A DNA stretch of 40,829 nt, from IMG/VR virus record IMGVR_UViG_3300022200_000010, positions 1 through 40,829 of that record. One strand, given 5' to 3'. Positions within the stretch are counted from its first letter, which is position 1, and each line of letters begins with the position of its first letter. Position numbers and translations under genes: made by a program. Under the pieces are notes generated by a model. That model had not been told where the DNA came from. It did not search any database and worked only from the letters and a program-made list of their open reading frames with translations. The DNA comes from a virus. This document shows, piece by piece, positions 3,243-39,363 of this stretch.

Positions 3243-3279
3243 ACCATAGCACACCTAAACCTTGCGCGTGGTCCGACCA
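3243..3279 (-). promoter_or_regulatory. Box A promoter, leftward (palindrome-N20-TATGGT)
   Basis: The palindrome TGGTCGGACCA (3269-3279, read leftward) is followed after exactly 20 nt by TATGGT (3243-3248). It points at the leftward gene starting at 3212, with a predicted start of transcription near 3236. The same 13-bp palindrome GTGGTCCGACCAC also lies within a rightward promoter (3262-3291), so one operator could control both directions. Confidence 0.6.
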
Positions 3280-3291
3280 CTAGCTTATACT
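3262..3291 (+). promoter_or_regulatory. Rightward promoter for portal gene with operator in spacer
   Basis: TTGCGC (3262-3267) and TATACT (3286-3291) are separated by 18 nt and form a reasonable sigma70 promoter for the portal gene at 3320. The spacer contains the perfect palindrome GTGGTCCGACCAC (3268-3280). A protein bound there would be expected to block RNA polymerase. Confidence 0.6.
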
Positions 3292-3319
3292 GACAACAAT
3301 ATTTTAATGGGCTGATAGT

Positions 3320-4765
3320 ATGTCACTGACAACAACGCATCCGGATTACGCGCTAATGCTGCCAGAGGTTGAAAAAATCCGCGCAGCTGTCAAAGGCGCA
3401 TTTTTTGTCAAGCGCGAAGGCTTCAAGTATCTGCCGCACCCTTCAGACATGGACCAGATTAGCGAAAGAGCTACAGCAAGATACACGGAATATCGCGCAG
3501 CTGCCGAGTTTGACGAAGTACCAGGATTTACGATGCGGTCAATGATTGGTCGTGCCGCGCTGCACAAATCAAACGTTGAAATGCCAGCCGGTCTTGAGCT
3601 TTTGAAAGAAAACGTTGACGGCGACGGGCTTTCATTGCTTGGTCAGGCTGAAAACGTGTTCGCTAACATCTTACAGATGAAATGGCATATCCTGATTGCT
3701 GAGTACATCAACAGCCCGAAAGCAGGTGAGCGATTAACGCCAGCACAGATTGCAGCTCGAAACATCCGACCAGCGATTAAATCATACCCGCGAGACGCAG
3801 TTTTAGATTGGGATTTCCGCACCATTAACGGCATTAACCAGCTTGCATACCTAAAGCTGATGGAGCATAAGTTCGCGCTGGACTACATGACCGGAAGTCG
3901 TAAAGAGTTTGACGAATACCTGATTCTATTTCTGGACGCTGAAGGTAATTACAATTGGCGCAAAGAAACAAGCACAGGCGAGCGCGGCGATGATAATCTG
4001 GTTACTGTTGCAGGCAAGCCACTTAAATGGTTGCCTGTTGAGATTGTCGCAGACATTGAACCTGAACCAGGTCAGCTGCCGCAAGAGCTTGGATTTTTAT
4101 CACCAATCGTTGATAAGGTGATGGCTCGTTACGTTGATTCAGCGCGATATGCTGAAGGTCGCCGCTCAATTCTGCCAACCGTCAACACGAAAGGCTGGCA
4201 AGGTAATGACTGGGATGACTTCCAGACAATGAACGGCGGAAGGTCGTATATTGAACTTGGCGGCTTAAGTGTGAACAACCTGCCGCGAGAGGTTGAAATG
4301 TCTGTGCTAAGCCCTTCAACCGAGCTTGACCACTTTGTCAAATACCGCGAAATCAACGCGCAGGATATTCGGGCGCTGGGTGGTGAGTTTTCAGGTGATG
4401 AGACTGCCGGTAAATCAGACACGCAGTCAAACGCAGAATCGGCAGATAAAGCCGCTAAAATGCTTTCTATTGTCAACAACATCGAAGCCAGCTATAAGCG
4501 CCTGATTGCTTACTGCGGCATGTTTGCCGGTATCTTCCAGCAAGACGCCATCGAGCAGGCAGCGCAAGAGGTTCAGCTAAGCCTTAACCGCGAATTCGCC
4601 AAGACTCGCGCACCGGTTGAAGATGCGCGGTTTGTTGTAACGGAATTGCGCATGTCAGGACTGTTTGATGATGAGACAATCCGGCAGCGACTGAAGCGCA
4701 TGGGATATGCTGACGATGCTGACATTGAGCGAGCGTTAAATGCAATAGACGGCGGCGGTCAATAA
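3320..4765 (+). CDS. Portal protein (DUF4055-like)
   Basis: This is the dodecameric channel at the head vertex through which DNA is packaged and ejected. The 481-residue protein has the architecture and motifs of the DUF4055 phage portal-like family: an N-terminal HPDY and YLPHPSDMD region, a central domain with FLSPIVDKVMARY, and a C-terminal helical region rich in A/E/Q. It lies between the head protein genes and the scaffold gene, as expected. Translation starts at ATG 3320, where the ribosome site is weak. It has its own promoter just upstream, with an embedded operator. Confidence 0.75.
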   Translation: MSLTTTHPDYALMLPEVEKIRAAVKGAFFVKREGFKYLPHPSDMDQISERATARYTEYRAAAEFDEVPGFTMRSMIGRAALHKSNVEMPAGLELLKENVDGDGLSLLGQAENVFANILQMKWHILIAEYINSPKAGERLTPAQIAARNIRPAIKSYPRDAVLDWDFRTINGINQLAYLKLMEHKFALDYMTGSRKEFDEYLILFLDAEGNYNWRKETSTGERGDDNLVTVAGKPLKWLPVEIVADIEPEPGQLPQELGFLSPIVDKVMARYVDSARYAEGRRSILPTVNTKGWQGNDWDDFQTMNGGRSYIELGGLSVNNLPREVEMSVLSPSTELDHFVKYREINAQDIRALGGEFSGDETAGKSDTQSNAESADKAAKMLSIVNNIEASYKRLIAYCGMFAGIFQQDAIEQAAQEVQLSLNREFAKTRAPVEDARFVVTELRMSGLFDDETIRQRLKRMGYADDADIERALNAIDGGGQ

Positions 4766-4766
4766 T

Positions 4767-4795
4767 TTGACGCCAAACCATTGACAGTTTACAAT
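4767..4795 (+). promoter_or_regulatory. Sigma70 promoter for scaffold/capsid genes
   Basis: TTGACG (4767-4772), a 17-nt spacer and TACAAT (4790-4795) closely match the sigma70 consensus. Transcription would start near 4802, giving a ~37-nt leader to the scaffold gene. No TGGTCNGACCA palindrome is present here, unlike at the portal and tail tube promoters. Confidence 0.7.
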
Positions 4796-4838
4796 TTCAA
4801 CAACGCAGCAATGCTGCACAAACAACAGAGGCAATGCC

Positions 4839-5579
4839 ATGTTATTTTCTGAAAAGCTAGAAGATGTACCGGAGCAGTTTCGAGCTGATTATGTTGAATC
4901 AGAGTACGAAGGCAAAAAAGGGTATCAGCACAAAGGCGTAGTGTCATTAGCTAACGCATACCGCAGCGAGCGCGAAAAGCGCGGCAAGGTTGAGGCGACA
5001 CTAGCGGAGCTGAACGCCAAGAAGCAGCAAGAGTTAGAGCAGGCACGCGAAGAAGAGCGGCAAAAGGCTTTGGACTCTAACAACATCAAGCGGCTGCTTG
5101 AGATTGAAGGGCAAAAGACCGCTGATGCAGTGGCGCGAGCCAAGGCAGAAGGCAAAGCGGAAGCATTGAAAGAGCTTGCTACAGAGCGAGCTAAAGAGCG
5201 CAAATCAGCGCTGATTGAGCGGTTCAAGCAGAAGGGCGTTGATGAACACGCCAAAGCCGCAATCGCGCTGATTCTGGACCGCATGATTGAGGTTGATCCA
5301 GAAACGCAGCAAGAGGCTTTTTTAGACGTGTCAGGCAAAGCTATGGCCGTCGATGTGAGCGGATTTGATGCGGAAATCGACAAGATGCCGCTATTCGCTC
5401 ATCTGATTGAAAAGAAGCAGTCCACAAGCGGGGCTGGCGGTGCAAATGGTTACGGCAATGCTGGAACTGTGCAGAAGAAGTTTGAAGAAATGAACAGCGC
5501 AGAGCTAGCGGCATTGTTGAAACAAAACCCTGCCGAGTATAAGCGCTTAAAAGACGATTATCACTCACGAGGTAAGTAA
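4839..5579 (+). CDS. Scaffolding protein
   Basis: This 246-residue, highly charged, alanine/glutamate/lysine-rich protein has a long predicted coiled coil (about residues 40-130). It lies immediately before the major capsid gene, the standard position for the internal scaffold that templates the prohead. The C-terminal part (YGNAGTVQKKFEEMNSAELAALL) resembles the capsid-binding end of phage scaffolds. The start has an AGAGG site about 7 nt upstream. The call rests on composition, length and synteny rather than a catalytic motif. Confidence 0.75.
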   Translation: MLFSEKLEDVPEQFRADYVESEYEGKKGYQHKGVVSLANAYRSEREKRGKVEATLAELNAKKQQELEQAREEERQKALDSNNIKRLLEIEGQKTADAVARAKAEGKAEALKELATERAKERKSALIERFKQKGVDEHAKAAIALILDRMIEVDPETQQEAFLDVSGKAMAVDVSGFDAEIDKMPLFAHLIEKKQSTSGAGGANGYGNAGTVQKKFEEMNSAELAALLKQNPAEYKRLKDDYHSRGK

Positions 5580-5582
5580 AAT

Positions 5583-6593
5583 ATGGCTACCGTACAACTA
5601 TCAGACATTATCAATGTCACCGTGTTTCAGGACTTGCCAGCGGTAAATGGTCCTGAAAAAACCGCTTTCTTCGAGGCTGGCGTAGTAACGCGCAACAGCT
5701 TGTTAGACAGCATTGCCAATCAACCTGGTCGCGTCGCTGAACTGCCATTCTGGAAAGATTTGGACGGCTCAAGCGAAGTCAACTACTCAACAGACAACCC
5801 AGCCAACATTGCGGTGCCTGAGAAGGTAACTCAAGGCGAGCAAATCGCCCGCAAAGCGTTTGTCAACAAAGGCTGGTCAGCATCTGATTTGGCGTCTGAG
5901 TTGGTTATGGGCGCTAAGTCGATGGAGCATATCCGCGCACGCACCGATGCGTACTTTATGCGCCAGTGGCAGCGCCGTCTGATTGCAACCTGTAACGGCT
6001 TGTTTGCCGATAACGTTGCCGCAAACTCAAGCGATATGGTTATTGACGTTGCTGTTGAATCAACCGGCGCGCAAACCGCAACCACTCGCTTTAACCGTGA
6101 TTCCTTCACTGATGCGGTTTATACAATGGGTGATGCTGCCGATTCGCTGCGTGCAATTGCAGTACACAGCGCTGTAATGAAGCAGATGGTGAAAAACGAT
6201 GACATCGTTTACATCCCTGATTCAATGGGCCAGCTGTCAATCCCTACATACATGGGCTTGCGCGTGATCGTTGACGATGGTCTGCCGGTTGTTGCTGGCT
6301 CTACCAGCGGCTTCAAGTACACCAGCGTAATCTTCGGTGAGGGTGCTTTCGGTTACGGCGTTGGTTCACCAATGGTTCCGGTTGAAATCGAACGTGAAGC
6401 AGCTCAGGGTAATGGCGGCGGCATCGAAACGCTGTGGGTTCGCAACACATGGTTACTGCATCCGTTTGGCTTCCAGCAAACCGGCACGCCAGCTGGTAAC
6501 AGCTTTACGTTGACAGAGCTGGCGGCAGCTACAAGCTGGGCGCGTGTAATTGAGCGTAAGAATGTTCCTATCGCATTTCTCCGCACAAACTGA
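5583..6593 (+). CDS. Major capsid protein
   Basis: This 336-residue protein follows the scaffold gene by 3 bp and has coat-protein features: an N-terminal segment (LSDIINVTVFQDLP), a conserved central stretch (AFVNKGWSASDLASELVMG), and a beta-rich C-terminus ending in a membrane-distal-like loop. It resembles the Gp13-like phage coat proteins with an HK97-type fold. Codon use looks optimised compared with the accessory genes around it, as expected for the most abundant virion protein. A terminator at 6634-6666 follows. There is no sign of a cleaved N-terminal delta domain. Confidence 0.8.
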   Translation: MATVQLSDIINVTVFQDLPAVNGPEKTAFFEAGVVTRNSLLDSIANQPGRVAELPFWKDLDGSSEVNYSTDNPANIAVPEKVTQGEQIARKAFVNKGWSASDLASELVMGAKSMEHIRARTDAYFMRQWQRRLIATCNGLFADNVAANSSDMVIDVAVESTGAQTATTRFNRDSFTDAVYTMGDAADSLRAIAVHSAVMKQMVKNDDIVYIPDSMGQLSIPTYMGLRVIVDDGLPVVAGSTSGFKYTSVIFGEGAFGYGVGSPMVPVEIEREAAQGNGGGIETLWVRNTWLLHPFGFQQTGTPAGNSFTLTELAAATSWARVIERKNVPIAFLRTN

Positions 6594-6633
6594 TACACCA
6601 ACTAATTTGTAATTAAGTTAGTTTTCTGGCATT

Positions 6634-6666: not shown

Positions 6667-7314
6667 ATGACTACGAGAAAATCAGGTGATAAGTTCAATA
6701 AGCTGACATTAATCAGTAATATTGACGGGTCCACCGATAAGTTTTATTCAACGGACAGGGTTTTGTTTTTATGTGACTGCGGTAATGATCACGTCGCCAT
6801 ACTGACAAATGTAGTTAGAGGCAACACTAAGCATTGCAAAAAATGCACGTCAGTATGGAAGTCAAATTTACACAAGTCTCACGGCAACTCAATATCAAGA
6901 AAAGACGCAGACCCAGACGGATATAGCTGCTACACAAGATGGCAAGCAATGAAGCGTAGATGCTATAAAGAATACGATTCACACTATACGAGATATGGCG
7001 GTAGAGGGATAAAAGTCTGCGACAGATGGTTAAATTCATACGAAAACTTCTTGCATGACATGGGGCTTCCACCAACAAGAGACCACCAGATTGACAGGAT
7101 TGATAATGACGGTGACTATACACCAGAAAATTGCAGATGGGTTAGCGGGCTTGCTAACGCAAGGAACAAGTCAAATAACACCATAATTTCAGCTTTTGGT
7201 AAAAGCCAAACACTGCAAACGTGGGCCGATGAAACTGGTATAAAAAGAGAGACTATATCTATGCGAATCAAGCGGGGCTGGACTCCTGAAATGGCGCTAA
7301 CAAAAAAGAAGTGA
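6667..7314 (+). CDS. HNH/AP2-type homing endonuclease
   Basis: This 215-residue free-standing endonuclease-like protein contains a zinc-knuckle pair (CDCG near residue 32, CKKC near 58), the YTRWQAMKRRCY segment near 92-103, YGGRGIKVCDRWL near 112-124, and DRIDNDGDYTPENCRW near 143-158. Together these are the signature of phage HNH endonucleases with an AP2-like DNA-binding region. The C-terminus has a helix-turn-helix-like segment (LQTWADETGIKRETISMRI). Its AT-rich coding sequence contrasts with the capsid gene. Position after a terminator suggests a selfish insertion. The start at 6667 replaces an upstream ATG lacking a ribosome site. Confidence 0.8.
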   Translation: MTTRKSGDKFNKLTLISNIDGSTDKFYSTDRVLFLCDCGNDHVAILTNVVRGNTKHCKKCTSVWKSNLHKSHGNSISRKDADPDGYSCYTRWQAMKRRCYKEYDSHYTRYGGRGIKVCDRWLNSYENFLHDMGLPPTRDHQIDRIDNDGDYTPENCRWVSGLANARNKSNNTIISAFGKSQTLQTWADETGIKRETISMRIKRGWTPEMALTKKK

Positions 7315-7350
7315 TATTATTAATTAGCAATAGCAATCGGAGTTGATACA

Positions 7351-8166: not shown

Positions 8167-8283
8167 CAGTTTGCATACTCCAGCTAGTCTTAACCAATCC
8201 GCTTGACACAATGGCGCGATAACAGGTTACAGACTAGCCGCCTCCTTCGGTTGTTTTAGCTTCCTGTTTGAAATTGTGTACAG

Positions 8284-8311: not shown

Positions 8312-8348
8312 TGGTCGGACCACAAGCAAAGGCTTTGCTTGATACAAT
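8312..8348 (+). promoter_or_regulatory. Box B promoter (palindrome-N20-TACAAT)
   Basis: TGGTCGGACCA (8312-8322) is followed after exactly 20 nt by TACAAT (8343-8348), which has an extended -10 TG. There is no consensus -35. A second perfect palindrome (AAGCAAAG, G, CTTTGCTT; 8324-8340) fills the spacer. It drives the gene at 8368. Confidence 0.75.
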
Positions 8349-8838: not shown

Positions 8839-8875
8839 TGGTCGGACCACACGCGCTGAACTTAGGTGCTATATT
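8839..8875 (+). promoter_or_regulatory. Box C promoter (palindrome-N20-TATATT)
   Basis: TGGTCGGACCA (8839-8849) begins just after the stop of the preceding gene and is followed after exactly 20 nt by TATATT (8870-8875). There is no consensus -35. Transcription would start near 8882, 20 nt before the gene at 8902. Confidence 0.75.
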
Positions 8876-8901: not shown

Positions 8902-9468
8902 ATGAACAAGCAAGAGTTATTGGATAAGGCGGTGCATGAGTTGAAAGGTGTGCTGCCTGAGATTGCAATTTGTGAAGTTGAAGAAGGTCAGCTTTATTGT
9001 GCAACCCATAAAGTGCGTCGCTCTTATGGTCGCGGCGAGGGCGGTGCTATAATCTCATCAATCTCAGGATTCCAACAACGCGCCCGCGAGCTTGGTTATG
9101 GCGTAGAGGTAGCAGAGCCTGAGAGCTGGTATTGTTACGAAACCCAAAAAGCGTTGCGGTTGCCGCCGGTTGGGGTTGAGTGTGAGTATAACAACAGCGG
9201 CAAATGGATTAAGTGCAAGTTGGTTTTTGCAGGAAAGCATAGAGGAATGATTGAAAAGAATAATGGCGATGAGCAAGCTGTAACTTTTGAGCATTGCCTA
9301 AGAAACTTCCGCTCACTCGACTGGAACCGCAAAGCCGAAGCTGAGCGCGATAAAGTTGTTGATGCGGCTTACAATGCAATAGCAACCCCCGGCGGCATTG
9401 GCGTTTATGACGCATTGTTAGCGCTACACGACGCAGGCTACTTGCGCCTGCCAGCAGATAAAAGCTAA
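8902..9468 (+). CDS. Conserved phage protein of unknown function
   Basis: This 188-residue protein starts at ATG 8902 after a GGAGGA site. It has an acidic helical N-terminus, a middle segment LPPVGVECEYNNSGKWIKCKLVF like a recurrent phage module of unknown function, and a C-terminal helical part (DAAYNAIATPGGIGVYDALLALHDAG). No catalytic motif is visible. It has a dedicated box promoter and probably runs with the small genes after it. Confidence 0.6.
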   Translation: MNKQELLDKAVHELKGVLPEIAICEVEEGQLYCATHKVRRSYGRGEGGAIISSISGFQQRARELGYGVEVAEPESWYCYETQKALRLPPVGVECEYNNSGKWIKCKLVFAGKHRGMIEKNNGDEQAVTFEHCLRNFRSLDWNRKAEAERDKVVDAAYNAIATPGGIGVYDALLALHDAGYLRLPADKS

Positions 9469-11605: not shown

Positions 11606-12205
11606 TTAATTATCAAACCAGAAAACAAACCTGATATTATCTGCTTGCTCTAAAATCTGATCATCATTAAAGCACCGAAGAAACTCTTTTGCTCTGCTTC
11701 TCATGACCGACTCAAGATTGTAAAGAGCGTCAACTTTATCTTCCCACGTTTTCTCTACAAAGCCAGATTGGTTTGTCCATTGACACCAACTTTCGGGGAT
11801 AATTCCATAAGAAAGCTTTTTTGCGTCATCCTCTGAAATCATGCCAGTAACTTTTGTTGGCTTAAGGTTTTTCCTGTAGTCAATAACTTGACGCAGTGTT
11901 ACAAAGCTATGGCTGTGACCATCACAACCCCATCGCTCTGACTCTGATTTTACGTAATTGGTGACATCATCTGGCAAGCCTTTTGGCTCTGAAATTGGTT
12001 CAATATCTTTCCCTCGGCTTCTTACCCCGCAAAGTTGAGCAAATGCAAAATAGTTTCTATTGCCAAACGCTTCGACCACCTTAAATTCAGGCTCATCATC
12101 TTCACCAAAATATTCGTTTTTTTTGAAGTAATCGCCGCTTCGCCACTCTGTTTTTCCGCTTACTGTTTTTTTGTACTCAATAAATCCATGAATATCGCAA
12201 CCCAT
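11606..12205 (-). CDS. Conserved MGCDIH-type phage protein, accessory gene
   Basis: This 199-residue leftward protein begins MGCDIHGFIEYK, a signature of a widespread uncharacterised phage/bacterial family. Conserved-looking blocks include FGNRNYFAFAQLCGVRSR near residues 47-64 and a central Asp/His/Cys-rich WGCDGHSHSFVTLRQV, which could bind metal. It interrupts the rightward tail operon and has its own box promoter at 12242-12278. The gene is AT-rich compared with its tail neighbours. Function unknown; opposite orientation and private promoter indicate a moron-like cargo gene. Confidence 0.75.
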   Translation of the reverse strand: MGCDIHGFIEYKKTVSGKTEWRSGDYFKKNEYFGEDDEPEFKVVEAFGNRNYFAFAQLCGVRSRGKDIEPISEPKGLPDDVTNYVKSESERWGCDGHSHSFVTLRQVIDYRKNLKPTKVTGMISEDDAKKLSYGIIPESWCQWTNQSGFVEKTWEDKVDALYNLESVMRSRAKEFLRCFNDDQILEQADNIRFVFWFDN

Positions 12206-12241: not shown

Positions 12242-12278
12242 ACTATAACCTACAAAACAGAAAACACTGCTCCGACCA
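12242..12278 (-). promoter_or_regulatory. Box D promoter, leftward (palindrome-N20-TATAGT)
   Basis: Read leftward, TGGTCGGAGCA (12268-12278; one mismatch to the palindrome) is followed after exactly 20 nt by TATAGT (12242-12247). It drives the leftward gene starting at 12205. On the other strand a TGCTACAAT extended -10 (12290-12295) could serve the rightward gene at 12319. Confidence 0.65.
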
Positions 12279-12717: not shown

Positions 12718-12738
12718 TGGTCTGACCAGCGGTATACT
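12710..12738 (+). promoter_or_regulatory. Tail tube promoter with operator in spacer (Box E)
   Basis: TTGCTT (12710-12715), a 17-nt spacer and TATACT (12733-12738) make a strong sigma70 promoter for the tail tube gene at 12785. The palindrome TGGTCTGACCA (12718-12728) fills the spacer and overlaps the stop codon of the preceding gene. No -10 occurs 20 nt from this box in either direction. As at the portal promoter, occupancy should hinder polymerase. Confidence 0.7.
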
Positions 12739-12784: not shown

Positions 12785-13231
12785 ATGGCCGTAATGACCA
12801 GTACAGGTACAAAGATTTTTGTATCAACCGCCACTCCGGCGACTTTCGACGCAGCCGGTTACGCTGCTTTAACTTACACTGAAGTAAAAGAGATCGTTTC
12901 AATCGGCGCTTTCGGTACGTCTGTTGACCCTGTGGAAGTTCGCACGCTGTCAAGTGGTGCGCTGCAAACATACAAGGGCCACAAAAACTACGGCGGCGTT
13001 ACCGGTGAAGCAAACTATGATGCTGCTGACGCAGGTCAAAACCTGTTACGCGCTAACATCCTGAACTCAACTGCCAACCTATCTGTAAAGGTACAAATGC
13101 CAGATGGCTCAGTGGTTTACAGCTATGGCCAATCGTTTGATGGTCAGCGCAACCCAGGCTCTGCCAACAACATGATCACAACATCATTCAGTGTGCGGTT
13201 TAACTATCCACCTGTCGAAGTCGCGGCATAA
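12785..13231 (+). CDS. Major tail tube protein
   Basis: This 148-residue, beta-rich protein has the pattern of a long-tail tube subunit: an N-terminal MTSTGTKIFVSTATP, a central VEVRTLSSGALQTYKGHKNYGGVTGE, and a C-terminal TTSFSVRFNYPP strand. It has its own strong promoter, as expected for an abundant virion component. It lies between the tail completion gene and the chaperone genes. Confidence 0.75.
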   Translation: MAVMTSTGTKIFVSTATPATFDAAGYAALTYTEVKEIVSIGAFGTSVDPVEVRTLSSGALQTYKGHKNYGGVTGEANYDAADAGQNLLRANILNSTANLSVKVQMPDGSVVYSYGQSFDGQRNPGSANNMITTSFSVRFNYPPVEVAA

Positions 13232-27135: not shown

Positions 27136-27154
27136 TTAACTATACTCTAGTTAA
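27136..27154. promoter_or_regulatory. Operator-like inverted repeat over -10
   Basis: TTAACTA (27136-27142) and TAGTTAA (27148-27154) are perfect 7-bp arms separated by 5 bp, covering the -10 of the leftward promoter. The spacing suits a dimeric HTH repressor. The HTH protein encoded at 26352-26717, in the same transcript, is a candidate ligand. Confidence 0.5.
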
Positions 27155-27166
27155 CTTAGGTTGCAA
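27139..27166 (-). promoter_or_regulatory. Leftward sigma70 promoter
   Basis: On the minus strand TTGCAA (27161-27166), a 16-nt spacer and TATAGT (27139-27144) form a promoter for the leftward genes from 27092. It overlaps the end of the Mom-like gene and contains the inverted repeat at 27136-27154. Confidence 0.65.
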
Positions 27167-27799
27167 GTTTATTTTCGCTGGTTGGACCAGTGCAGGGTAA
27201 GGCTCTTTTTTATACAGTATTTTTTGTGATAGATATTTCTTTTGCGTCTTACTGCCAACGATGTAGATGTATCTGTGTTTCCTTGGCCTGTCTTTTAAGT
27301 AGAAGTCGTCTCCGTATTTGTCGCGCATGGCTTGTGCGCGATTTTTTACACCTCTGAATTGATCGGCTATAGTCTGTCCGTGTAGATGCTCCATCCCTTT
27401 AACTTTCCAGTCTGTGCGTTTTGCGCTCAAACCATGATAAGTAAAGTTGCATGCCTGATATACAATGCCTGTGTGACCTTGTTCAGTGTCTGCAAAACTG
27501 ATTACAATTGATGGCTTTGGCAGCATCTTTAGTGTTTTTGACACAAAAAAAGAAGCCTCGTTTTTACGGTTCCATTTCAAGCAAAGCCTGTTCAGCTCAA
27601 GAACAATGCTAATGTTTTTATCACCAGCAATACCTCTGCGCAGCGGGGCGCTTGGCGGTGTTCCGTAAGTGCAAACACCAACAAGCTCGCCTTCATCAAA
27701 CAATCCAAATGCGTGACTGATAGATGGCCACCGCCTTGCGTAGTGAATGCCAATAATAAATGGCTCACACTCTTTTCTGGTTATGCGCTTTACTTCCAT
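27140..27799 (-). CDS. Mom-like DNA modification protein (acyltransferase-type)
   Basis: This 219-residue protein resembles the phage Mu Mom family, which converts adenine to a methylcarbamoyl form and so blocks restriction. Shared elements are IIGIHYARRWPSISHAFGLF (near residues 15-34), LELNRLCL (Mu ELSRL-like), and SFADTEQGHTGIVYQACNF (Mu SYADxxxGHxGxVYxA-like, near 111-129), then LSAKRTDW. ATG 27799 has GGAG 6 nt upstream; more distal ATGs at 27805 and 27811 are less well placed. It should act late, protecting DNA against host enzymes. Confidence 0.75.
   Translation of the reverse strand: MEVKRITRKECEPFIIGIHYARRWPSISHAFGLFDEGELVGVCTYGTPPSAPLRRGIAGDKNISIVLELNRLCLKWNRKNEASFFVSKTLKMLPKPSIVISFADTEQGHTGIVYQACNFTYHGLSAKRTDWKVKGMEHLHGQTIADQFRGVKNRAQAMRDKYGDDFYLKDRPRKHRYIYIVGSKTQKKYLSQKILYKKEPYPALVQPAKINLQPKLTRV
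27179..27189. promoter_or_regulatory. Box F, divergent member of the TGGTCNGACCA family
   Basis: TGGTTGGACCA (27179-27189) lies in the 3' end of the Mom-like gene, 12 bp upstream of the leftward -35. Unlike seven other copies it has no good -10 after 20 nt (TAAGTT leftward). It may act as an upstream site for the leftward promoter or be a chance match. Confidence 0.4.
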
Positions 27800-27947
27800 T
27801 TCCATCTCCATTGTTAACCAAAGCCACCACATCAACCGCCTCAACACCAAACCTTTCCAACACAGCCGCCGGTACTTCTTCTGGCGGCGTGGTGGTTATC
27901 ATGGTGAAGGGGTCGTAGTTGGGTAATGTTATTTTGTATGACTGCAT
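27765..27947 (-). CDS. Small hypothetical protein overlapping the Mom-like gene
   Basis: This 60-residue protein starts MQSYKITLPNYDPFTM and has a Pro/Glu-rich middle and a polar, basic tail. It overlaps the gene before it by 19 bp and the Mom-like gene by 35 bp. The ribosome site is weak. Overlap could couple its translation to the modification gene. Confidence 0.45.
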   Translation of the reverse strand: MQSYKITLPNYDPFTMITTTPPEEVPAAVLERFGVEAVDVVALVNNGDGNGSKAHNQKRV

Positions 27948-28291
27948 GGCGCGTCTGGTAATGGTAGCCAGTGGGTGACGTCAAGTGCATCCGTGTCGTA
28001 ATCAAAAACAACCATAGAGTCATGCGCAAGCCAGACCACCTCTCCGGTTTCAGAGTCTTTGTCGCAAAATGCAATAGTTATCATCATGCTTTTTGAGTCT
28101 GCTCTGTAAGCGCGGACAAGATACCACTCGCCATCTTTCGGATGTTCAAAATCAGCATCCCGCCAGCGCAGCTTTTCTTGCAGCTCTGCGAGTTTTTTTT
28201 CTAGGGTGGCGTAGTCGTCGTACAGAACAAAACTTCCGCTATCAGATGCCGCAATACCCTCATAAAAACATAGCTCATAACGCTTAACCAT
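27929..28291 (-). CDS. DUF551-like hypothetical protein
   Basis: This 120-residue protein has a coiled N-terminal part (YATLEKKLAELQEKLRW) and ends with a region resembling DUF551 (GEWYLVRAYRADSK, then DVTHWLPLPDAP, the typical W-x-P-L-P ending). The family is common in phage early regions and has no known function. Start at ATG 28291, in TGATG overlap with the gene upstream and preceded by GGAGGG. Confidence 0.6.
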   Translation of the reverse strand: MVKRYELCFYEGIAASDSGSFVLYDDYATLEKKLAELQEKLRWRDADFEHPKDGEWYLVRAYRADSKSMMITIAFCDKDSETGEVVWLAHDSMVVFDYDTDALDVTHWLPLPDAPCSHTK

Positions 28292-28476
28292 CACTCACCC
28301 TCCTTCAAAAACTCATTCAACCAATCGCGCAGATGGGCGGCTTGTTGTTTTGTCAGCAAAACGTCAGCATCAAAACCTTCATGGGCAGACACAAGCAAAT
28401 CTCCTTTAATAACAGCCTTAGAAAACCGTATTTTAGCGCTGTCATCTAGTTTGCATTTCATTACTAATTCTTTCAT
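28291..28476 (-). CDS. Small hypothetical protein
   Basis: This 61-residue protein starts MKELVMKCKLDDSAK, has a central hydrophobic strand pattern and ends with a helix (QQAAHLRDWLNEFLKEGE) like that of small early phage proteins. GGAGG lies 6 nt upstream. It is the first gene after the Box G promoter and is coupled to the next. Confidence 0.55.
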   Translation of the reverse strand: MKELVMKCKLDDSAKIRFSKAVIKGDLLVSAHEGFDADVLLTKQQAAHLRDWLNEFLKEGE

Positions 28477-28502: not shown

Positions 28503-28539
28503 ATTAAACCACACCACACATGGCGGTGTGGTCAGACCT
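28503..28539 (-). promoter_or_regulatory. Box G promoter, leftward (palindrome-N20-TTTAAT)
   Basis: Read leftward, AGGTCTGACCA (28529-28539) is followed after exactly 20 nt by TTTAAT (28503-28508). The spacer holds a perfect inverted repeat with arms ACCACACC and GGTGTGGT (28508-28532). It would drive genes from 28476 down to the Mom-like gene. Confidence 0.6.
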
Positions 28540-30950: not shown

Positions 30951-30975
30951 TGGTTGCGTCTCCATTGGTGTTGAC

Positions 30976-31013
30976 GGTTGACATTATTACCTTGCTTGGT
31001 TACTATGTCAACC
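30976..31013. promoter_or_regulatory. Two fully overlapping face-to-face promoters in one inverted repeat
   Basis: Perfect 9-bp arms GGTTGACAT (30976-30984) and ATGTCAACC (31005-31013) each contain a TTGACA. Rightward: TTGACA 30978-30983, 17 nt, TACTAT 31001-31006. Leftward: TTGACA 31006-31011, 17 nt, AATAAT 30983-30988. Each -10 lies in or next to the other promoter's -35, so only one polymerase can bind at a time. They separate the leftward recombination block from the rightward replication block. Confidence 0.8.
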
Positions 31014-31047
31014 GCTTAATGTTAAAATTTTAATTAAGAGGTGAGAT

Positions 31048-31218
31048 ATGTTGACGGTTGAGCAAATTAAAAAAAGGCTTGAGCATAGTAATTTAAAAGC
31101 TGTTGCAACGGCTACTGGAGTTCATTTCAACACTGTTTACAGGTTTGTTAAAGATGGTTCGCAACCGTCTTATAAAACAGTAAAAGCTTTAAGTGACTAT
31201 TTGGAGTCTATGCAATGA
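31048..31218 (+). CDS. Cro-sized HTH DNA-binding protein
   Basis: This 56-residue protein is essentially a single HTH domain (LKAVATATGVHFNTVYRFVKDG, split by turns, near residues 16-37). A GAGGTG site precedes ATG 31048. It is first in the rightward replication operon, immediately after the face-to-face promoters, which makes it the best candidate for a regulator of them. Its start codon region repeats TTGACGGTTGA also found at 30971. The stop overlaps the next start (ATGA). Confidence 0.75.
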   Translation: MLTVEQIKKRLEHSNLKAVATATGVHFNTVYRFVKDGSQPSYKTVKALSDYLESMQ

Positions 31219-33486: not shown

Positions 33487-33839
33487 ACGAAGAAACCAAA
33501 CTAATGAGGCGTATCATGCTGGAGCTGACAGCGGCAGGCTGCTTAGTTTTTAGGAACGAGTGTGCGGGCGCTTACGTTGGCAAAGTGATACACAAGGACG
33601 CCAGAATAGTAACGCTGGCAAACGCGCAACTGATGACGTTCGGGCTTGCTGTTGGCAGCGCTGATATTATCGGTATTCATAAGGCAACTGGCCGCTTTCT
33701 GGCGTTCGAGGTAAAAACCGCCAGCGGGAAACCAACTAAAGAGCAGTTGAATTTTATTGAGCAGGTCAGAGCAGCTAACGGCATCGCCGGTATTGTGCGA
33801 AGCACGCAAGATGCAATAGACTTACTTCCCCGCGAATAA
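33483..33839 (+). CDS. VRR-NUC domain nuclease
   Basis: This 118-residue stand-alone VRR-NUC protein is a structure-selective nuclease of the PD-(D/E)XK fold. Motifs: an N-terminal helix (ETKLMRRIMLELTAAG), GSADIIGI near residues 58-65 (metal-binding Asp), FLAFEVKTASGKPTKEQLNF near 73-92 (ExK). It is coupled to the helicase by ATGA. Such proteins probably process branched replication intermediates. Confidence 0.85.
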   Translation: MNEETKLMRRIMLELTAAGCLVFRNECAGAYVGKVIHKDARIVTLANAQLMTFGLAVGSADIIGIHKATGRFLAFEVKTASGKPTKEQLNFIEQVRAANGIAGIVRSTQDAIDLLPRE

Positions 33840-33882
33840 CGCGGCCAACGTGGTGCGCCACAAACTAACCTTGCGAGGTAAT

Positions 33883-34104
33883 ATGAACCAATGTAACCAC
33901 AAAGGACACTTGCGCTATGTGCGCAGAGTGTTCAAAGACGGAACCATTCACTTCGGCGTTCAATGCTCTAACTGCCTTGATATGGTAAAGACTGAGCGCC
34001 ACCAGCATAAGTTGTTTATTCAGCTTTCTGAAATCCCGCCACACAGCACCATTCACGAATACATAGACCCTGAGCTAAACGACAAGCAAGGGGATTTATT
34101 ATGA
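33883..34104 (+). CDS. Small zinc-finger-like protein
   Basis: This 73-residue protein has CNHKGH near its N-terminus and CSNC near residue 28, a possible zinc site. A C-terminal region rich in His and acidic residues follows. ATG 33883 has GAGGT upstream. It is coupled to the primase-helicase gene by ATGA. A helper role in replication is possible. Confidence 0.55.
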   Translation: MNQCNHKGHLRYVRRVFKDGTIHFGVQCSNCLDMVKTERHQHKLFIQLSEIPPHSTIHEYIDPELNDKQGDLL

Positions 34105-36341
34105 GCGCTCCAACCATTGCAAAATATGCAGAGACATACACAAGCCGGTACGGCTGGCATTTAGTACCAATCGAGCCTCTAAAGAAGTTCCCGCAGTCTG
34201 CTGACTGGGGTAATAACGCCCTATCTGAACCAGCTCAAGCGTATGCTTATTGGGAGTTGCATAAGGATTGGAATATGGGTGTTGCGCTTGGGCCGTCTGG
34301 TATGTGCAGTTTGGATATAGACGACGCTGACGGTTGGGCGCTTATACTTGAAGAGTTCGGCATCCCCGCTGATGCGCTTGATAATTACCCTACGATACAG
34401 GGGCGCGGCAAGCGCGTGATGTTCAGAGTGCCTGAAGGCGTTCATCTGCCTTACTGTAAGGTAAACTGGCCGCGCCAAGACGACCAAAAAAAGCATTACA
34501 CTATCGTTGAGCTTCGTGCGGCTTGTGATGGCTCGCAGAAGCAGGACTGCGTCCCGCCTGCTATACACCCGACAACGCTGAAGCCTTACGAATGGATAGT
34601 TAAGCCTCCTAAGACGCTTGCTGAGTGGCCTACACCGCCAGATTGGCTGTTGGCTATCTGGTCCGCTTGGGATGCGTTCAAACCACAGTTGCAAGCGGTA
34701 TGTCCTTGGTCTGCCAAGCCTGAGCGCAAGCAGTTGCCACAACGCACGCACGCACCAACGCAAGGCATGCCGGACGTTAGCGGAGAGTACGAGCGAGAAA
34801 ACCCAATCGAGCAACAGCTTGAGCGTTACGGATACAAGCGCAAAGGCAAGCGATACCTGTCTCCGCATAGCTCAACTGGGCTGCCAGGTGTTTACTTGCT
34901 GGACAGCGCACGCTGCTGGATACACCACGCAAGCGATCCGCTTTGCAGTGAGGAAACCGGCAAGCCTGTCAGCAGTTACGACTTGTTTTGCTACTACGAG
35001 CACGGTGGCGATTATTCGAAGGCGTTTAAGGCTGCAGCTGCAGAACTTGGTATTCAGTTGAAAGCGCCAGTTGTCACCAAGCCTTCGCAAGCGTATCAAG
35101 AGCTAATGCCTGAACCGGTCCAGAATAGCAATGCAGTTACTCTTTCAGCAGACCCAGAACAACCGTTGCCGTTTTGCACAGAAAAAGGCGTACCGCTGGC
35201 GCATATCGCAAACCTAAGCGAGATATGCCGCAGGCTTGGTGTTAGCGTCCGGTACAACGTGATAAGCAAAGAGGAAGAAATAATTATACCAAACCAGTCA
35301 TTCAGCCTAGACAACGAAGGAAACGCATCCATCGCTTGGCTTGAGTCAGAATGCAGCTTGTTCAAAATGCCAACTAGCAAATTATCAGGTTTTGTCACTT
35401 ACTTGGCAGACCAGAACCAATACAACCCTGTTGCCAACTGGGTTTCCAGTAAGCATTGGGATGGCCAAGACCATTTAGGTAAGTTGCTTGATACTGTCAC
35501 AATCAAAGACAGCAAAAATCTGGCAGCTGTTGTTCTTAAAGATACGCTTATCACACGCTGGATGATTTCAGCAATTGCTGGCGCGTTCAGTCCGAAAGGT
35601 GTTAGCGCGTCCGGTGTATTGGTGTTTCAAGGCGATCAGTACGTTGGTAAAACCAAGTGGTTTAAGTCTTTAGTGCCGGAGGATTTAAACCTAATTAAAG
35701 ATGGCGTAATTCTAAAACCTGACGATAGAGACAGCGTAAAGCAAGCTGTTAGCTTTTGGCTTGTAGAGCTTGGCGAGCTTGATAGCACGTTCAGGAAAGC
35801 AGATATAGCCGCGCTGAAAGCGTTCCTGACTAACGACAAGGACGTATTGCGCCGAGCTTACGCCAGGAAGGAAAGCCAGTACGCACGGCGAACTGTGTTT
35901 TTCGGCTCAGTCAACCCTAAGGAGTTTTTGCACGACCCAACAGGGAACAGGCGTTACTGGACCATCGAAGTTGCCAAACTTGACCACTCGCATAACATCG
36001 ACATGCAGCAAGTGTGGGCGCAAGTTTACGAGCTATGGAAGCGCGGCGAAAGCCACTATTTAACGCCGGATGAAATGAGCCAGTTGAATAGTCATAACGA
36101 AGAGTTTACTGCAATAGACCCAGTAGAAGAGGCTATAACAAGCCGATTCGATTGGAGCGCAAGCAGAGACCGCTGGAATGACTGGAAAACAGCGACGGAA
36201 ATACTAAACGACTGCGGTTATGAGCGGCCGACAAAGGCCGACGCAACCAATGCCGGCTTAGTTGTTCGCAAGCTAAACGGCAACGCTTGCAGGCGAACAT
36301 CGGCAGGTCGGCAGCTTCTTGTGCCGCCTTTGAAGTTTTAA
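34101..36341 (+). CDS. Primase-helicase (prim-pol N-terminus, VirE/D5-like ATPase)
   Basis: This 746-residue replication protein has an N-terminal primase-polymerase region with SLDIDDADGW near residues 70-79 (catalytic Asp pair) and GRGKRVMFRVP near 100-110. A linker (about 230-340) is followed by an SF3-like/VirE ATPase with Walker A GDQYVGKTKW near 513-522, LVELGELDST near 554-563 and NPKEFLHDPTGNRRYW near 613-628. It should prime and unwind at the origin. The putative origin at 36342-36708 lies directly downstream. Confidence 0.85.
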   Translation: MSAPTIAKYAETYTSRYGWHLVPIEPLKKFPQSADWGNNALSEPAQAYAYWELHKDWNMGVALGPSGMCSLDIDDADGWALILEEFGIPADALDNYPTIQGRGKRVMFRVPEGVHLPYCKVNWPRQDDQKKHYTIVELRAACDGSQKQDCVPPAIHPTTLKPYEWIVKPPKTLAEWPTPPDWLLAIWSAWDAFKPQLQAVCPWSAKPERKQLPQRTHAPTQGMPDVSGEYERENPIEQQLERYGYKRKGKRYLSPHSSTGLPGVYLLDSARCWIHHASDPLCSEETGKPVSSYDLFCYYEHGGDYSKAFKAAAAELGIQLKAPVVTKPSQAYQELMPEPVQNSNAVTLSADPEQPLPFCTEKGVPLAHIANLSEICRRLGVSVRYNVISKEEEIIIPNQSFSLDNEGNASIAWLESECSLFKMPTSKLSGFVTYLADQNQYNPVANWVSSKHWDGQDHLGKLLDTVTIKDSKNLAAVVLKDTLITRWMISAIAGAFSPKGVSASGVLVFQGDQYVGKTKWFKSLVPEDLNLIKDGVILKPDDRDSVKQAVSFWLVELGELDSTFRKADIAALKAFLTNDKDVLRRAYARKESQYARRTVFFGSVNPKEFLHDPTGNRRYWTIEVAKLDHSHNIDMQQVWAQVYELWKRGESHYLTPDEMSQLNSHNEEFTAIDPVEEAITSRFDWSASRDRWNDWKTATEILNDCGYERPTKADATNAGLVVRKLNGNACRRTSAGRQLLVPPLKF

Positions 36342-36345
36342 CAAC

Positions 36346-36367
36346 AACCCGCTTCGGCGGGTTTTTT
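36346..36367 (+). terminator. Rho-independent terminator after primase-helicase gene
   Basis: AACCCGC (36346-36352), a TTCG loop and GCGGGTT (36357-36363) are followed by T to 36367. It ends the replication operon and insulates the noncoding repeat region. Confidence 0.85.
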
Positions 36368-36635
36368 ATGTCACCTTTTAGGGTGACATGAGTTTTTTAT
36401 AGGGGTGACATGGTTTAAATGTTTGATTTTTAAGTAGAAAATGAATCCATGTCACCTATTGTCACATTGTCACCACTTTCCATATAGCAGATCGCGTTAT
36501 ACGCACCAGCCCTATATTACCTATTAATTTCATTATTTATATAATAGGTGTCATAGGTGACAATAGTGGCAGAAGCCAATAACGGCGCGTCTTACAGAGC
36601 ATGTCACGTTTTATGTCACCTTTTAATGGTGTCAT
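36368..36635. repeat. Putative replication origin with GGTGACAT-type iterons
   Basis: The 367-bp noncoding region 36342-36708 carries about ten copies of TGTCACC or its complement: 36368, 36382, 36404, 36449, 36459 (partial), 36467, 36547 (GGTGTCAT), 36556, 36601, 36613 and 36628 (GGTGTCAT). The first two form a perfect inverted repeat with a 6-nt loop. A strongly AT-rich tract lies at about 36515-36546. Iterons, AT-rich DNA and an adjacent primase-helicase gene are hallmarks of a phage origin. Confidence 0.7.
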
Positions 36636-36642
36636 GACCCGC

Positions 36643-36679
36643 TGGTCAGACCACCACCGCATGAAACCGGTGTTATGAT
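36643..36679 (+). promoter_or_regulatory. Box H promoter (palindrome-N20-TATGAT)
   Basis: TGGTCAGACCA (36643-36653) is followed after exactly 20 nt by TATGAT (36674-36679) with an extended -10 TG. There is no consensus -35. It should drive the string of small genes from 36709. The box lies 8 bp after the last iteron, so origin and promoter are adjacent. Confidence 0.75.
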
Positions 36680-36708
36680 TGGTTTATCAACAACGATGGA
36701 GAAAGAAG

Positions 36709-36939
36709 ATGGCAACTAAGAATGGTGATTTACCGGCGATGCCAACAACGATATTTCAGCAGATTGGAGACATTGCAGAATGCCACTCTGCTGGTGGATT
36801 TACAAAACGCGAGCAATTCGCAATGGCGGCGATGCAGGGTTTGTGTGCAACTGGTCAGTACGGTGACTTTCAGCATGTTGCAGAAGATGCATGCAAGGCT
36901 GCAGACGCACTGCTGGCGGAGTTGGAGCGGACGAAATGA
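36709..36939 (+). CDS. Small conserved phage protein
   Basis: This 76-residue protein contains GGFTKREQFAMAAMQGLCA (near residues 28-46), a motif common in small phage proteins of unknown function. ATG 36709 follows GGAG. It is first after the Box H promoter. Function unknown. Confidence 0.6.
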   Translation: MATKNGDLPAMPTTIFQQIGDIAECHSAGGFTKREQFAMAAMQGLCATGQYGDFQHVAEDACKAADALLAELERTK

Positions 36940-37208
36940 GCGAAACAAAATTTATTATCGGCCCGTACATAGCTGCCAACTACTCAAAAAAGAAAATTGG
37001 AGTCGGCAGACCCGGCGGAGGCGCGTTTCTGTTTGTGACACCAAGACAAGGTGATGATTTTGATGAGCAGCTGCTGTACACAATCCACCTGATGACGCTT
37101 GCACCGGATATGTATGCTCTGTTGGAAACTGCAACCGGCATGTTCTCTGGAACTGAATTTGCAAAGAAAGCAGAACAACTACTCGCAAAAGCGCGGGGTG
37201 AAGTATGA
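36936..37208 (+). CDS. Small hypothetical protein
   Basis: This 90-residue protein starts at ATG 36936 in an ATGA overlap. The N-terminus is strand-rich (KFIIGPYIAANYSKKKIGVG) and the C-terminus helical (KKAEQLLAKARGEV). The hydrophobic segment LLYTIHLMTLAPDMYALLE resembles a small phage protein family of unknown function. Confidence 0.55.
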   Translation: MSETKFIIGPYIAANYSKKKIGVGRPGGGAFLFVTPRQGDDFDEQLLYTIHLMTLAPDMYALLETATGMFSGTEFAKKAEQLLAKARGEV

Positions 37209-37636
37209 ACCCGCGAATTCTAAAGAAGCTCACCAAAAAATCCGAGCCGATAATTATTGCGCTTGGCTTAACCAAAAACCGGCACAGGGTTTTGGTCGGA
37301 AAACATGACGCTGAATCGGTTGGAGGAATCTTTAAGTGTGACCGGAAACACTGGGAGCGCTGGGGCGGAAAGCCAAACAAATACGGTTACGCGACTCAAT
37401 TATCTGGCACAGTCGGTTATGGCTATATGTCAGGCTATGAAGAACCTGAGTGGGAGGATGACAACTGCTGGTCGATACTTACAGACCATGTTTTTGAGAG
37501 CTTTACTGACTGGGGCAGCTGTACAGAGGCTACCGGCTGGCCTGAGGACTACTGCCCGCGCAAACTGAAGCGAAACACGGCGGCAATACTTAATTACGGC
37601 AGAACATTAGCCGCTCAGAAAAGAGGTAATGCATGA
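37205..37636 (+). CDS. Hypothetical protein
   Basis: This 143-residue protein is rich in Trp, Gly and Cys (WERWGGKPNKYGYATQ; DWGSCTEATGWPEDYC). It has a basic N-terminus. ATGA overlaps on both sides place it in the Box H operon. No family recognised. Confidence 0.55.
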   Translation: MNPRILKKLTKKSEPIIIALGLTKNRHRVLVGKHDAESVGGIFKCDRKHWERWGGKPNKYGYATQLSGTVGYGYMSGYEEPEWEDDNCWSILTDHVFESFTDWGSCTEATGWPEDYCPRKLKRNTAAILNYGRTLAAQKRGNA

Positions 37637-37899
37637 CACCACACGACAACCACTTACACGACCAAAAGGCAGACGCCGACGCAGCCTACGATATGGCGCT
37701 TGAAGATGCGCGCAAAAGCGTTGTGATTACCGGCTATGAGTTTGGTGAGTGTTTGCTTGCCAAGTCAGACATTAAAATGGACCTGTTTTTCCAAGCAGTG
37801 GTTGAATCTGACTGTCCGGTGATGAAAGCAATGGTGCAGACGATTTGCGCGGACGTGATTTCACGGAAGGCTAAGCAGGCTATGGGGATGAAGAAATGA
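37633..37899 (+). CDS. Hypothetical protein
   Basis: This 88-residue acidic helical protein (QKADADAAYDMALEDARKSV near the start, SRKAKQAMGMKK at the end) is ATGA-coupled to both neighbours. No motif recognised. Confidence 0.55.
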   Translation: MTPHDNHLHDQKADADAAYDMALEDARKSVVITGYEFGECLLAKSDIKMDLFFQAVVESDCPVMKAMVQTICADVISRKAKQAMGMKK

Positions 37900-38291
37900 A
37901 ATACACAAAAGAACAACTGGAAGCGATGAGTGATTTTGATATGCCGCAGGCATTCCAGAGAAAAACACGCACAGCAAAAAAGCAACACACCTGCTGCGAG
38001 TGCCGAAAAGCAATCAGTTCCGGTGACAAATACGAGCACTCAAGCGGCGTGTGGGATGGCAAGCCAGATAGCTTTAAAACCTGTTTGTCATGCGTCGAGA
38101 TTCGGGATGAATACACTGCATCAACTGGTGAGCCAACAGCATTTGGCGAACTTGGCAGTACCATTCACGAGACTTTTTACCGTGGCTTCGGTCCGCGCGA
38201 ATATGCTGAGCAGTTAGGCATTTCTCTGGAGCGAATAATGGTGTTTTTCCCTGATTTCTACGATGACGAGAATTTGGAGCCGCAACCATGA
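37896..38291 (+). CDS. Zinc-ribbon hypothetical protein
   Basis: This 131-residue protein has Cys pairs CCEC (near residues 33-36) and CLSC (near 65-68) that can form a zinc ribbon, with a region between them (AISSGDKYEHSSGVWDGKP) seen in phage zinc-binding proteins. The acidic C-terminus is otherwise featureless. ATGA-coupled. Confidence 0.6.
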   Translation: MKYTKEQLEAMSDFDMPQAFQRKTRTAKKQHTCCECRKAISSGDKYEHSSGVWDGKPDSFKTCLSCVEIRDEYTASTGEPTAFGELGSTIHETFYRGFGPREYAEQLGISLERIMVFFPDFYDDENLEPQP

Positions 38292-38446
38292 CCACCTGGC
38301 AACCAATGCGGTCAGTCATTGACTACGACCTGAAGCAGCTTGCTGATGTTATGCCGTACAGTGCAAGCCTGCTTTGCATGTACGCTAATCAGGCGGTTTG
38401 TTTTGCGGATGCGGCGATTTTGGAGGCGATGGCGGATGAAGAGTAA
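38288..38446 (+). CDS. Small hypothetical protein
   Basis: This ORF encodes 52 residues (MTTWQPMRSVIDYDLKQLAD, later CFADAAILEAMADEE). It overlaps the gene before by 4 bp and the gene after by 11 bp. No family recognised. Confidence 0.5.
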   Translation: MTTWQPMRSVIDYDLKQLADVMPYSASLLCMYANQAVCFADAAILEAMADEE

Positions 38447-38693
38447 ACAGCAGCAAGCTATCGAGCTGCGGCAAGCCGGACACCGCAACTATGCGCAGAT
38501 TGGCAAAATGATTGGCGCGTCAACTGAGCAGGTGTGGTCTTGGCTTGGCTGCAAACATGACGCCGAGCAATGGGAGCAAGACCGCCAGCGGCATGCGGCG
38601 TTTTTTGGTGGATTAAGCCCTGCTTCAGAATACCGCCAGCATGCAAAACGGCGGCGGGAAATTAACGAAACGATGGAGAACGAGACTGCATGA
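38436..38693 (+). CDS. Small HTH-like protein
   Basis: This 85-residue protein starts at ATG 38436 behind GGAGG. It has a helix-turn-helix-like N-terminal part (LRQAGHRNYAQIGKMIGAST, near residues 10-29) followed by a basic helix (QHAKRRREINETMENETA). It probably binds DNA. Confidence 0.55.
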   Translation: MKSKQQQAIELRQAGHRNYAQIGKMIGASTEQVWSWLGCKHDAEQWEQDRQRHAAFFGGLSPASEYRQHAKRRREINETMENETA

Positions 38694-38917
38694 CAAACGA
38701 CATTGAATCAGCCCTGTTTGACCGCTGGTTTAACGGCGAGCAAGACACCAGACAAGGCTTTGAATACGGATTGCACCTGAACCAAATCTACCTGATGGGC
38801 CAGACGCTTTACCGCGTAAACCCACAAGGTGAGTATGCGTTGTACTACAACAACAGAGCATGGCGGGAGAGCGCCAAGGTTACGAACAAAGAGTTAATCG
38901 GGATGGAGCGCTTGTAG
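38690..38917 (+). CDS. Hypothetical protein
   Basis: This 75-residue protein is aromatic-rich (YGLHLNQIYLMGQTLYRV) with no recognised motif. The start is in ATGA overlap with the previous gene. Confidence 0.5.
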   Translation: MTNDIESALFDRWFNGEQDTRQGFEYGLHLNQIYLMGQTLYRVNPQGEYALYYNNRAWRESAKVTNKELIGMERL

Positions 38918-39073
38918 ATGGTTAGTTTACACAAAACACTTTTAGAAAAATGCAAGTACAGCCGCGTCACGCTGGCTGACTTGAAGCCGAACAGTCGAGC
39001 CATTGCGCAGCGCTTGCTGGCTGAGGGGGAGCTGTATGTGGATGAGCGTGGGTATTTGAGGGTTAACGGATGA
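38918..39073 (+). CDS. Small hypothetical protein
   Basis: This ORF encodes 51 residues (MVSLHKTLLEKCKYSRVTLA; a winged-helix-like EGELYVDERGYLRV near the end). ATG 38918 directly follows the previous stop, with GGAG about 9 nt upstream. The stop overlaps the next start (ATGA). Confidence 0.5.
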   Translation: MVSLHKTLLEKCKYSRVTLADLKPNSRAIAQRLLAEGELYVDERGYLRVNG

Positions 39074-39345
39074 GCGACGACAAGGAGCTGTTTTATATGA
39101 CACAAAACGCACCAGAACGCACCACAAGCGATTTAATCAACAAACCTAAACACTACCAGCTAATCGGTGACTTAGAGGCTATAGACGTGATTGAGCGCGT
39201 TTTAACGCCAGAGCAGTTTAAAGGGTACTTGATTGGAAATTTCCTTAAGTACCGCTGCAGGGCCGGCCAGAAAGACGACGCTTTGCAGGACTTGGCAAAG
39301 TCTGAGTGGTATCGGCAACGCGCCGCTGGTACGACCACTAACTAA
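39070..39345 (+). CDS. DUF3310 protein
   Basis: This 91-residue protein has the DUF3310 signature: NKPKHYQLIG near residues 24-33, EAIDVIERVL near 36-45, and NFLKYRCRAGQKDDALQDLA near 57-76, followed by WYRQR. The family is linked in T7 to gp1.7, a nucleotide kinase; whether this shorter protein is an enzyme is unknown. It precedes the Box I promoter. Confidence 0.75.
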   Translation: MSDDKELFYMTQNAPERTTSDLINKPKHYQLIGDLEAIDVIERVLTPEQFKGYLIGNFLKYRCRAGQKDDALQDLAKSEWYRQRAAGTTTN

Positions 39346-39363
39346 ACAAAACCGCGCTATAGT
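39327..39363 (+). promoter_or_regulatory. Box I promoter (palindrome-N20-TATAGT)
   Basis: TGGTACGACCA (39327-39337) is followed after exactly 20 nt by TATAGT (39358-39363), with no consensus -35. The box lies inside the end of the DUF3310 gene. It drives the secreted-protein gene at 39395 and probably those up to 40546. Confidence 0.7.

Follow-up and report, generated by a model that had tools for sequence, protein, structure and literature searches.

Dispersed siphophage promoters with a FadR-like box at a fixed distance from the -10 element

The virus record IMGVR_UViG_3300022200_000010 (40,829 nucleotides, analyzed in full and called the window here) carries a scattered family of promoters in which an 11-bp palindromic box, matching the core of the operator of the GntR-family regulator FadR, is followed at an offset of exactly 20 nt by a -10 hexamer. 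This offset-20 box promoter is a lineage-wide feature of a broad siphophage group. A FadR-type regulator, probably that of the host, is predicted to bind the boxes and to run the dispersed regulon that they mark.

RESULTS AND DISCUSSION

Boxes and -10 hexamers in the window

A promoter box in the window was defined as the FadR-type 11-mer core TGGTCNGACCA with at most one mismatch, and a -10 as a TATAAT-like hexamer with at least 4 of 6 matches and T in the first and last positions; the offset is counted from box to -10. Eight box/-10 pairs were found at offset 20, and every other offset from 5 to 39 gave between 0 and 2. In 300 dinucleotide shuffles of the window, the number of pairs at offset 20 averaged 0.02 and never exceeded 2. 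An initial annotation of this DNA had listed seven boxes, each with a -10 starting exactly 20 nt past the 11-mer; the places, orientations and hexamers are as it described them (Table 1), the comparison with shuffled sequence bears out the pattern, and the observation of a promoter family in the window is confirmed. Its proposal that the box occupies an activator-like position is strongly supported and extends to relatives, and the same spacing recurs in dozens of phage contigs. The box is exact in four of the seven promoters (3269, 8312, 8839 and 36643) and has one mismatch in the other three (12268, 28529 and 39327).

The eighth pair is formed by the + strand of the 3269 box, which the initial annotation overlooked together with the exact box at 12718, the one-mismatch box at 27179 and the boxes that lie within -35/-10 spacers. 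Because the 3269 box has a hexamer at offset 20 on both strands, it may serve both directions; an additional TATACT is found 6 nt past it in the portal direction. The earlier description of the genes served as all accessory or early fits most of them and fails for the portal gene at 3269 (+) and the major tail protein gene at 12718 (+). The G022 homologue of the MGCDIH-family gene has the same promoter type as the gene in the window, and proteins of BS5 and G025 that resemble the PAMP/GLTKRE protein are likewise encoded behind box promoters (these phages and contigs are introduced below).

Table 1. Boxes, -10 hexamers and a neighboring gene in the window
Feature	Position	Strand	Remarks
Box TGGTCCGACCA	3269..3279	.	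Lies between the portal and head morphogenesis genes; each strand has a -10-like hexamer at offset 20
-10 TATGGT, TGn-extended	3243..3248	-	Small antisense gene, ATG near 3212
-10-like TATTTT, offset 20 from 3269 box	3300..3305	+	Faces portal gene 3320-4765
Box TGGTCGGACCA	8312..8322	+	
-10 TACAAT	8343..8348	+	Gene start ATG 8368, PHROG 2776 protein
Box TGGTCGGACCA	8839..8849	+	
-10 TATATT, TGn-extended	8870..8875	+	Accessory gene, ATG near 8902
Box TGGTCGGAGCA (promoter orientation)	12268..12278	-	G variant of Pseudoalteromonas phages
-10 TATAGT	12242..12247	-	Drives 11606-12205, MGCDIH family, PHROG 10141
Exact box TGGTCTGACCA	12718..12728	+	No -10 at offset 20; putative occlusion site
Weaker candidate box TGGTCCAACCA, 1 mismatch	27179..27189	-	3' end of mom-like gene; poor TAAGTT at offset 20
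Mom-like DNA modification gene	27140-27850	-	Pfam Mom, E = 8e-41
Box AGGTCTGACCA	28529..28539	-	
-10 TTTAAT	28503..28508	-	Drives small gene 28291-28476
Box TGGTCAGACCA	36643..36653	+	
-10 TATGAT	36674..36679	+	Drives small PAMP...GLTKREQFAM protein, 36709-36939 (+)
Box TGGTACGACCA	39327..39337	+	Same as E. coli fadBA operator core
-10 TATAGT	39358..39363	+	Drives 39395-39670, small protein with signal-peptide-like start

The record begins and ends in a 127-bp direct repeat (1-127 and 40703-40829), so the window genome is probably complete. Contigs of several relatives have similar repeats of 114 to 127 bp; such repeats probably arose in the assembly of genomes that are circular or permuted.

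Recurrence of the promoter across phages

In a first scan, 2.9 million viral contigs were searched for ACTGGTCNGACCAGT followed, after an open gap of 12 to 24, by TATNNT; 22 stretches matched, the gap corresponds to offset 20 in 12, and several stretches are copies of one virus. The L086 and L088 groups in that scan each consist of near-identical copies of a single virus and are not independent, and the L088-type matches look like coding sequence. Three multi-box contigs, G022, G025 and G026, were picked by their promoter pattern alone and not by protein similarity, and all three have portal and major capsid proteins in common with the window; for G025 and G026, identity of the major capsid protein to that of the window is 70%. 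The cultured Pseudoalteromonas phages BS5 and HS2 have six to seven box promoters each, of the form AACTGGTCGGAGCAGTT, and the promoters of contig G017 are of this form as well. In the HS2 record KF302036, boxes lie at 6786 (+), 8271 (+), 16413 (both strands), 18284 (-), 23008 (-) and 36309 (-). A scan for it gave 73 stretches with 67 distinct TGGTCGGAGCA boxes, and TANNNT stands at offset 20 in 52 of the 67; among the other offsets from 12 to 29, none has more than 13. Because the scan required TANNNT at any of 13 offsets, the evidence is the concentration at a single offset and not the presence of the hexamer. Counted over 216 box orientations, a -10 is present at offset 20 in 80, versus about 5 at typical offsets.

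The complete circular contigs G695 and G696 carry seven to eight box promoters each. Two are present in G708, the closest relative found (primase 85%), and one of them can be aligned to the 8839 promoter of the window, the region of which matches boxed promoters of both G708 and G697 (74%). A comparison of the window's first 25 kb with phage DNA found no similarity. Relatives that are free of boxes include Alteromonas R9Y1, Shewanella 3/49, Vibrio P23 and F89, and Achromobacter Mano. When seven box-bearing phages were compared, a tail protein was the only family found in all of them, and no regulator was common to them.

Anatomy of the promoter

A consensus was drawn from 80 nonredundant promoters, in which the box, the offset and a TATAAT-like hexamer were fixed by selection and the flanks, the extended -10 and the distances to gene starts were left free, save in contigs that the first scans had chosen with AC/GT flanks. 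It reads AAC-TGGTCGGA(G/C)CA-GTT, then a spacer of fixed length, a TRTGn extended -10 and a TATARTT-like -10. Flanking the box, A occurs at -3 in 60% and at -2 in 85% of the promoters, C at -1 in 91%, G at +1 in 83% and T at +2 in 83%; T at -1 occurs in 0%. The inner C/G pair of the box is retained in 88-92% across relatives. The same AAC/GTT flanks are found in BS5, HS2, G017, G022 and G025, the last two having come from the AC/GT-flank scan. Gene starts lie mostly 25 to 32 nt past the -10, unlike those in shuffled leaders. The proximal half of the box sits in the place of a -35 element, and a box in that slot has the geometry of class II activation. Between box and -10, the spacers are variable and diverged in sequence and exact in length, and the keeping of length without sequence suggests that a bound factor contacts the polymerase. 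The box at G025:35445, ahead of that contig's Cro-like gene, precedes an extended -10 (TATATT) by about 30 nt, a helical turn more than the usual offset, which may represent a second distance for activation.

Boxes inside sigma70-type spacers

When -10 hexamers were counted at all offsets, an excess was seen near the box. A box lies within a sigma70-type -35/-10 spacer of 16 to 18 bp in 28 of 216 orientations, compared with a mean of 2.5 (standard deviation, 1.5; maximum, 9) when flanks were shuffled. Several of these spacer-type promoters face structural genes. In G022, TTGACA-18-TATACT surrounds the box at 2125, upstream of the scaffold gene, and TTGTCA-17-TATACT surrounds boxes in G025 (9755) and G026 (39560). 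Spacer-type promoters also stand upstream of the portal genes of G022 (569), G025 (14830) and G026 (3899). Counting the 3269 box of the window, the portal gene has a box directly ahead of it in four of four genomes. A box at 38327 in G026 and the one at 12718 in the window likewise occupy the gap that precedes the major tail protein gene; the window box is set in a weak -35-like TTGCTT ag BOX gcgg TATACT arrangement with a 17-bp spacer, upstream of gene 12785-13231. A regulator bound at a spacer-type box would be expected to occlude the structural promoter. At G025 9755 and G022 7978, the other strand of the same box carries an activation-type promoter facing an accessory gene, and one box could thus turn on an accessory gene while shutting off a structural promoter.

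Which regulator reads the box

The initial annotation had related the palindrome to FadR-subfamily operators and had proposed FadR, LldR or PdhR of the host as the protein to test. The published 17-bp FadR consensus is aaCTGGTCnGACC(T/A)Gtt (PMC9329746). The 11-bp core of the window boxes fits the FadR operator core, exactly in four of seven cases and with one change in three, and the core at 39327 is identical to that of the fadBA probe (PMC4259882). In the relatives, the AAC/GTT flanks complete the 17-bp consensus, which supports the FadR part of the proposal; the identity of the regulator is still a prediction. The C-to-G change that characterizes the boxes of the Pseudoalteromonas phages is also present in the Shewanella oneidensis fabA operator CTGATCGGAGTTGTT, which carries this GGAG variant and at which FadR binds and activates (PMC4537474). 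The G695 box reads AACTGGTCGGAGTTGTT. As to possible hosts, FadR is listed among the proteins of the HS2 host (PMC11170926), and in the order that contains the FadR-bearing G334, which we infer to be the order holding Pseudoalteromonas, 230 of 296 genomes have the FadR_C domain; in a wider sample of the class it was found in 7 of 370 genomes, three of which score strongly. A recurrent sequence, AACTGGTACGAGCAGTT, was noted in small genomes of the host order; the gene downstream of it was not identified.

Several observations weigh against this identification. In the window itself, the outer flanks are mostly G/C and not AAC/GTT, and the spacer-type promoters combine good -10s (TATACT) with poor -35s. 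Shewanella and Vibrio are infected by box-free phages of the same terminase family. The fabA and fabB sites of Escherichia coli-like genomes have offset 21, not 20, in 14 of 14 sites found, and the S. oneidensis fabA probe has offset 21 too. Near-consensus 17-mers were no commoner in genomes of the host order than a reversed control. Given the G/C-rich outer flanks of the window, the BS5/HS2-type and G025-type phages make a better case for host FadR than the window does.

As an alternative regulator from the host, PdhR, LldR or an uncharacterized FadR-subfamily protein would have in its favor both the poor fit of the window's outer flanks to the FadR consensus and the core GGTnnnACC, which PdhR shares. 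The PdhR consensus is ATTGGT, however, with T at -1 (PMC7660256), and the corresponding PdhR/LldR operator feature (ATTGGTnnnACCAAT) is never seen among the 80 promoters; the prevalence of C at -1 in the relatives argues against PdhR and LldR (PMC9329746, PMC7660256), and the inner C/G pair and AAC/GTT flanks fit FadR, so we regard this alternative as distinctly improbable. A reading in which the factor mainly represses, and in which the fixed spacing reflects inheritance of one ancestral moron cassette and not activation, would accommodate the association of box and -10 with unrelated accessory genes and the many boxes within sigma70 spacers. It does not readily accommodate spacers that have diverged in sequence while the offset stays at exactly 20 nt, or the position of the box in the -35 place, and it appears very improbable indeed.

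The boxes might instead be read by a phage-encoded activator, a FadR-like miniprotein in some phages and an unrecognized protein, such as the Cro-like helix-turn-helix (HTH) protein encoded at 31048-31218 in the window, in others. Two box-bearing contigs do encode such a miniprotein. The 77-amino-acid protein P0001 of G017 (33801-34034, - strand) has a winged-helix domain with the HGKP motif of FadR, and a 94% identical copy is encoded in contig IMGVR_UViG_3300021389_000002 (L405:10001-10231, + strand), a contig that the box scan had picked out independently. Among proteins of solved structure, full-length FadR proteins match it best (E = 0.004-0.01), with PdhR ranking lower (0.028). Scores are weak: the protein falls under the Pfam GntR cutoff, NCBIfam places a trehalose repressor model slightly above FadR, and the AlphaFold model is of low confidence (pLDDT, the predicted local distance difference test, 50). 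The acyl-CoA-binding domain FadR_C is not present, as the 77-codon frame ends past the DNA-binding domain, and the protein is thus FadR-like and not a FadR. From its sequence, and at these modest scores, we read it as a FadR-like DNA-binding domain, and its presence in phages with FadR-like boxes is a telling coincidence. The window shares a small Cro-like HTH with G025 and G026, and none of the box-free relatives compared has it. On the other side, domain and profile searches found no GntR domain in BS5, HS2, G022, G025, G026 or the window, in agreement with the earlier statement that the window encodes no GntR protein, and the seven box-bearing phages compared have no regulator in common. 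The Cro-like HTH has no clear homologue in BS5, HS2 or G017, and it was rejected as a universal activator on that ground; its own promoter also has a different inverted repeat, GGTTGACA...TGTCAACC. In the window (30960-31218, + strand), this repeat spans a sigma70-like promoter ahead of the gene. Overall, a phage-encoded activator seems unlikely.

A model for the box promoters

We therefore favor, as the fairly probable explanation, that the boxes are FadR-type GntR operators at which FadR, most likely that of the host, acts as a class II activator, and that some of the boxes could be two-way switches. The box sequences, their spacing and flanks, their recurrence and synteny and the FadR-like domain of two relatives were observed directly. 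On this model, a FadR-type dimer on a box centered at about -38 would cover for the absent -35 element and hold sigma70 RNA polymerase at the extended -10, and dispersed accessory (moron-like) and early genes would thereby be turned on. Where the box lies in the -35/-10 spacer of a structural promoter, as in many relatives and weakly in the window, the bound regulator would block that promoter, and a single box could work as a two-way switch with the accessory gene on and the structural gene off. Binding, activation, occlusion and a response of the box promoters to long-chain acyl-CoA are predictions from sequence. A more tentative and rather doubtful extension is that the lineage uses the long-chain acyl-CoA sensor of the host genome-wide, with FadR keeping accessory genes on and structural genes off, acyl-CoA reversing this state, and the ligand-blind mini-FadR of some phages locking the switch.

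The nearest counterparts among known systems are the fabA and fabB promoters of E. coli and S. oneidensis, where a 17-bp FadR box likewise lies at a fixed spacing, about one box-length upstream of a TATNNT-type -10, and where the S. oneidensis fabA site has the same GGAG half-box. They differ in their offset (21 versus 20 in the phages), in the FabR site within the fabA/fabB spacer, and in being single host genes as against five to eight dispersed promoters per phage. Lambda cI at OR activates PRM and represses PR, and here too a single occupied operator could turn on one promoter and block a divergent one; unlike cI, however, the regulator seems to be of the FadR family of the host, and most of these phages do not encode it, and many scattered single boxes take the place of one control region. 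Promoters served by Mu Mor/C and by P2 Ogr/P4 Delta likewise lack a good -35 and are marked by an activator box ahead of the -10. Those activators are phage encoded and unrelated to GntR proteins, whereas the box described here resembles a host metabolic operator. Lambdoid morons are accessory genes that lie between structural genes and have their own promoter, and the accessory genes here are inserted in the same way, but their promoters share one activator box and a fixed spacing. A literature search, itself partial in coverage, yielded no description of FadR-dependent phage promoters. As far as the literature searched shows, the class is undescribed, a variant of activator-dependent phage promoters that has a host-like metabolic operator.

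FadR has been characterized in detail, and E. coli strains mutated in fadR are available. Cultures exist of both HS2 and its host, Pseudoalteromonas 13-15, and a time course of RNA sequencing has been published, in which structural genes are transcribed late and 67% of the genes early (PMC7082346). This timing is compatible with the model and is no test of it. The usual explanations of phage transcription programs are phage-encoded regulators or ordinary sigma70 promoters. The widespread siphophage group described here appears to rest five to eight dispersed promoters per genome on the operator of a host metabolic sensor. If this is true, expression of the accessory genes depends on the fatty-acid state of the host, and the phage reads the lipid state of the cell that it infects; it would also explain how accessory genes inserted at many places in these genomes can nevertheless be coregulated.

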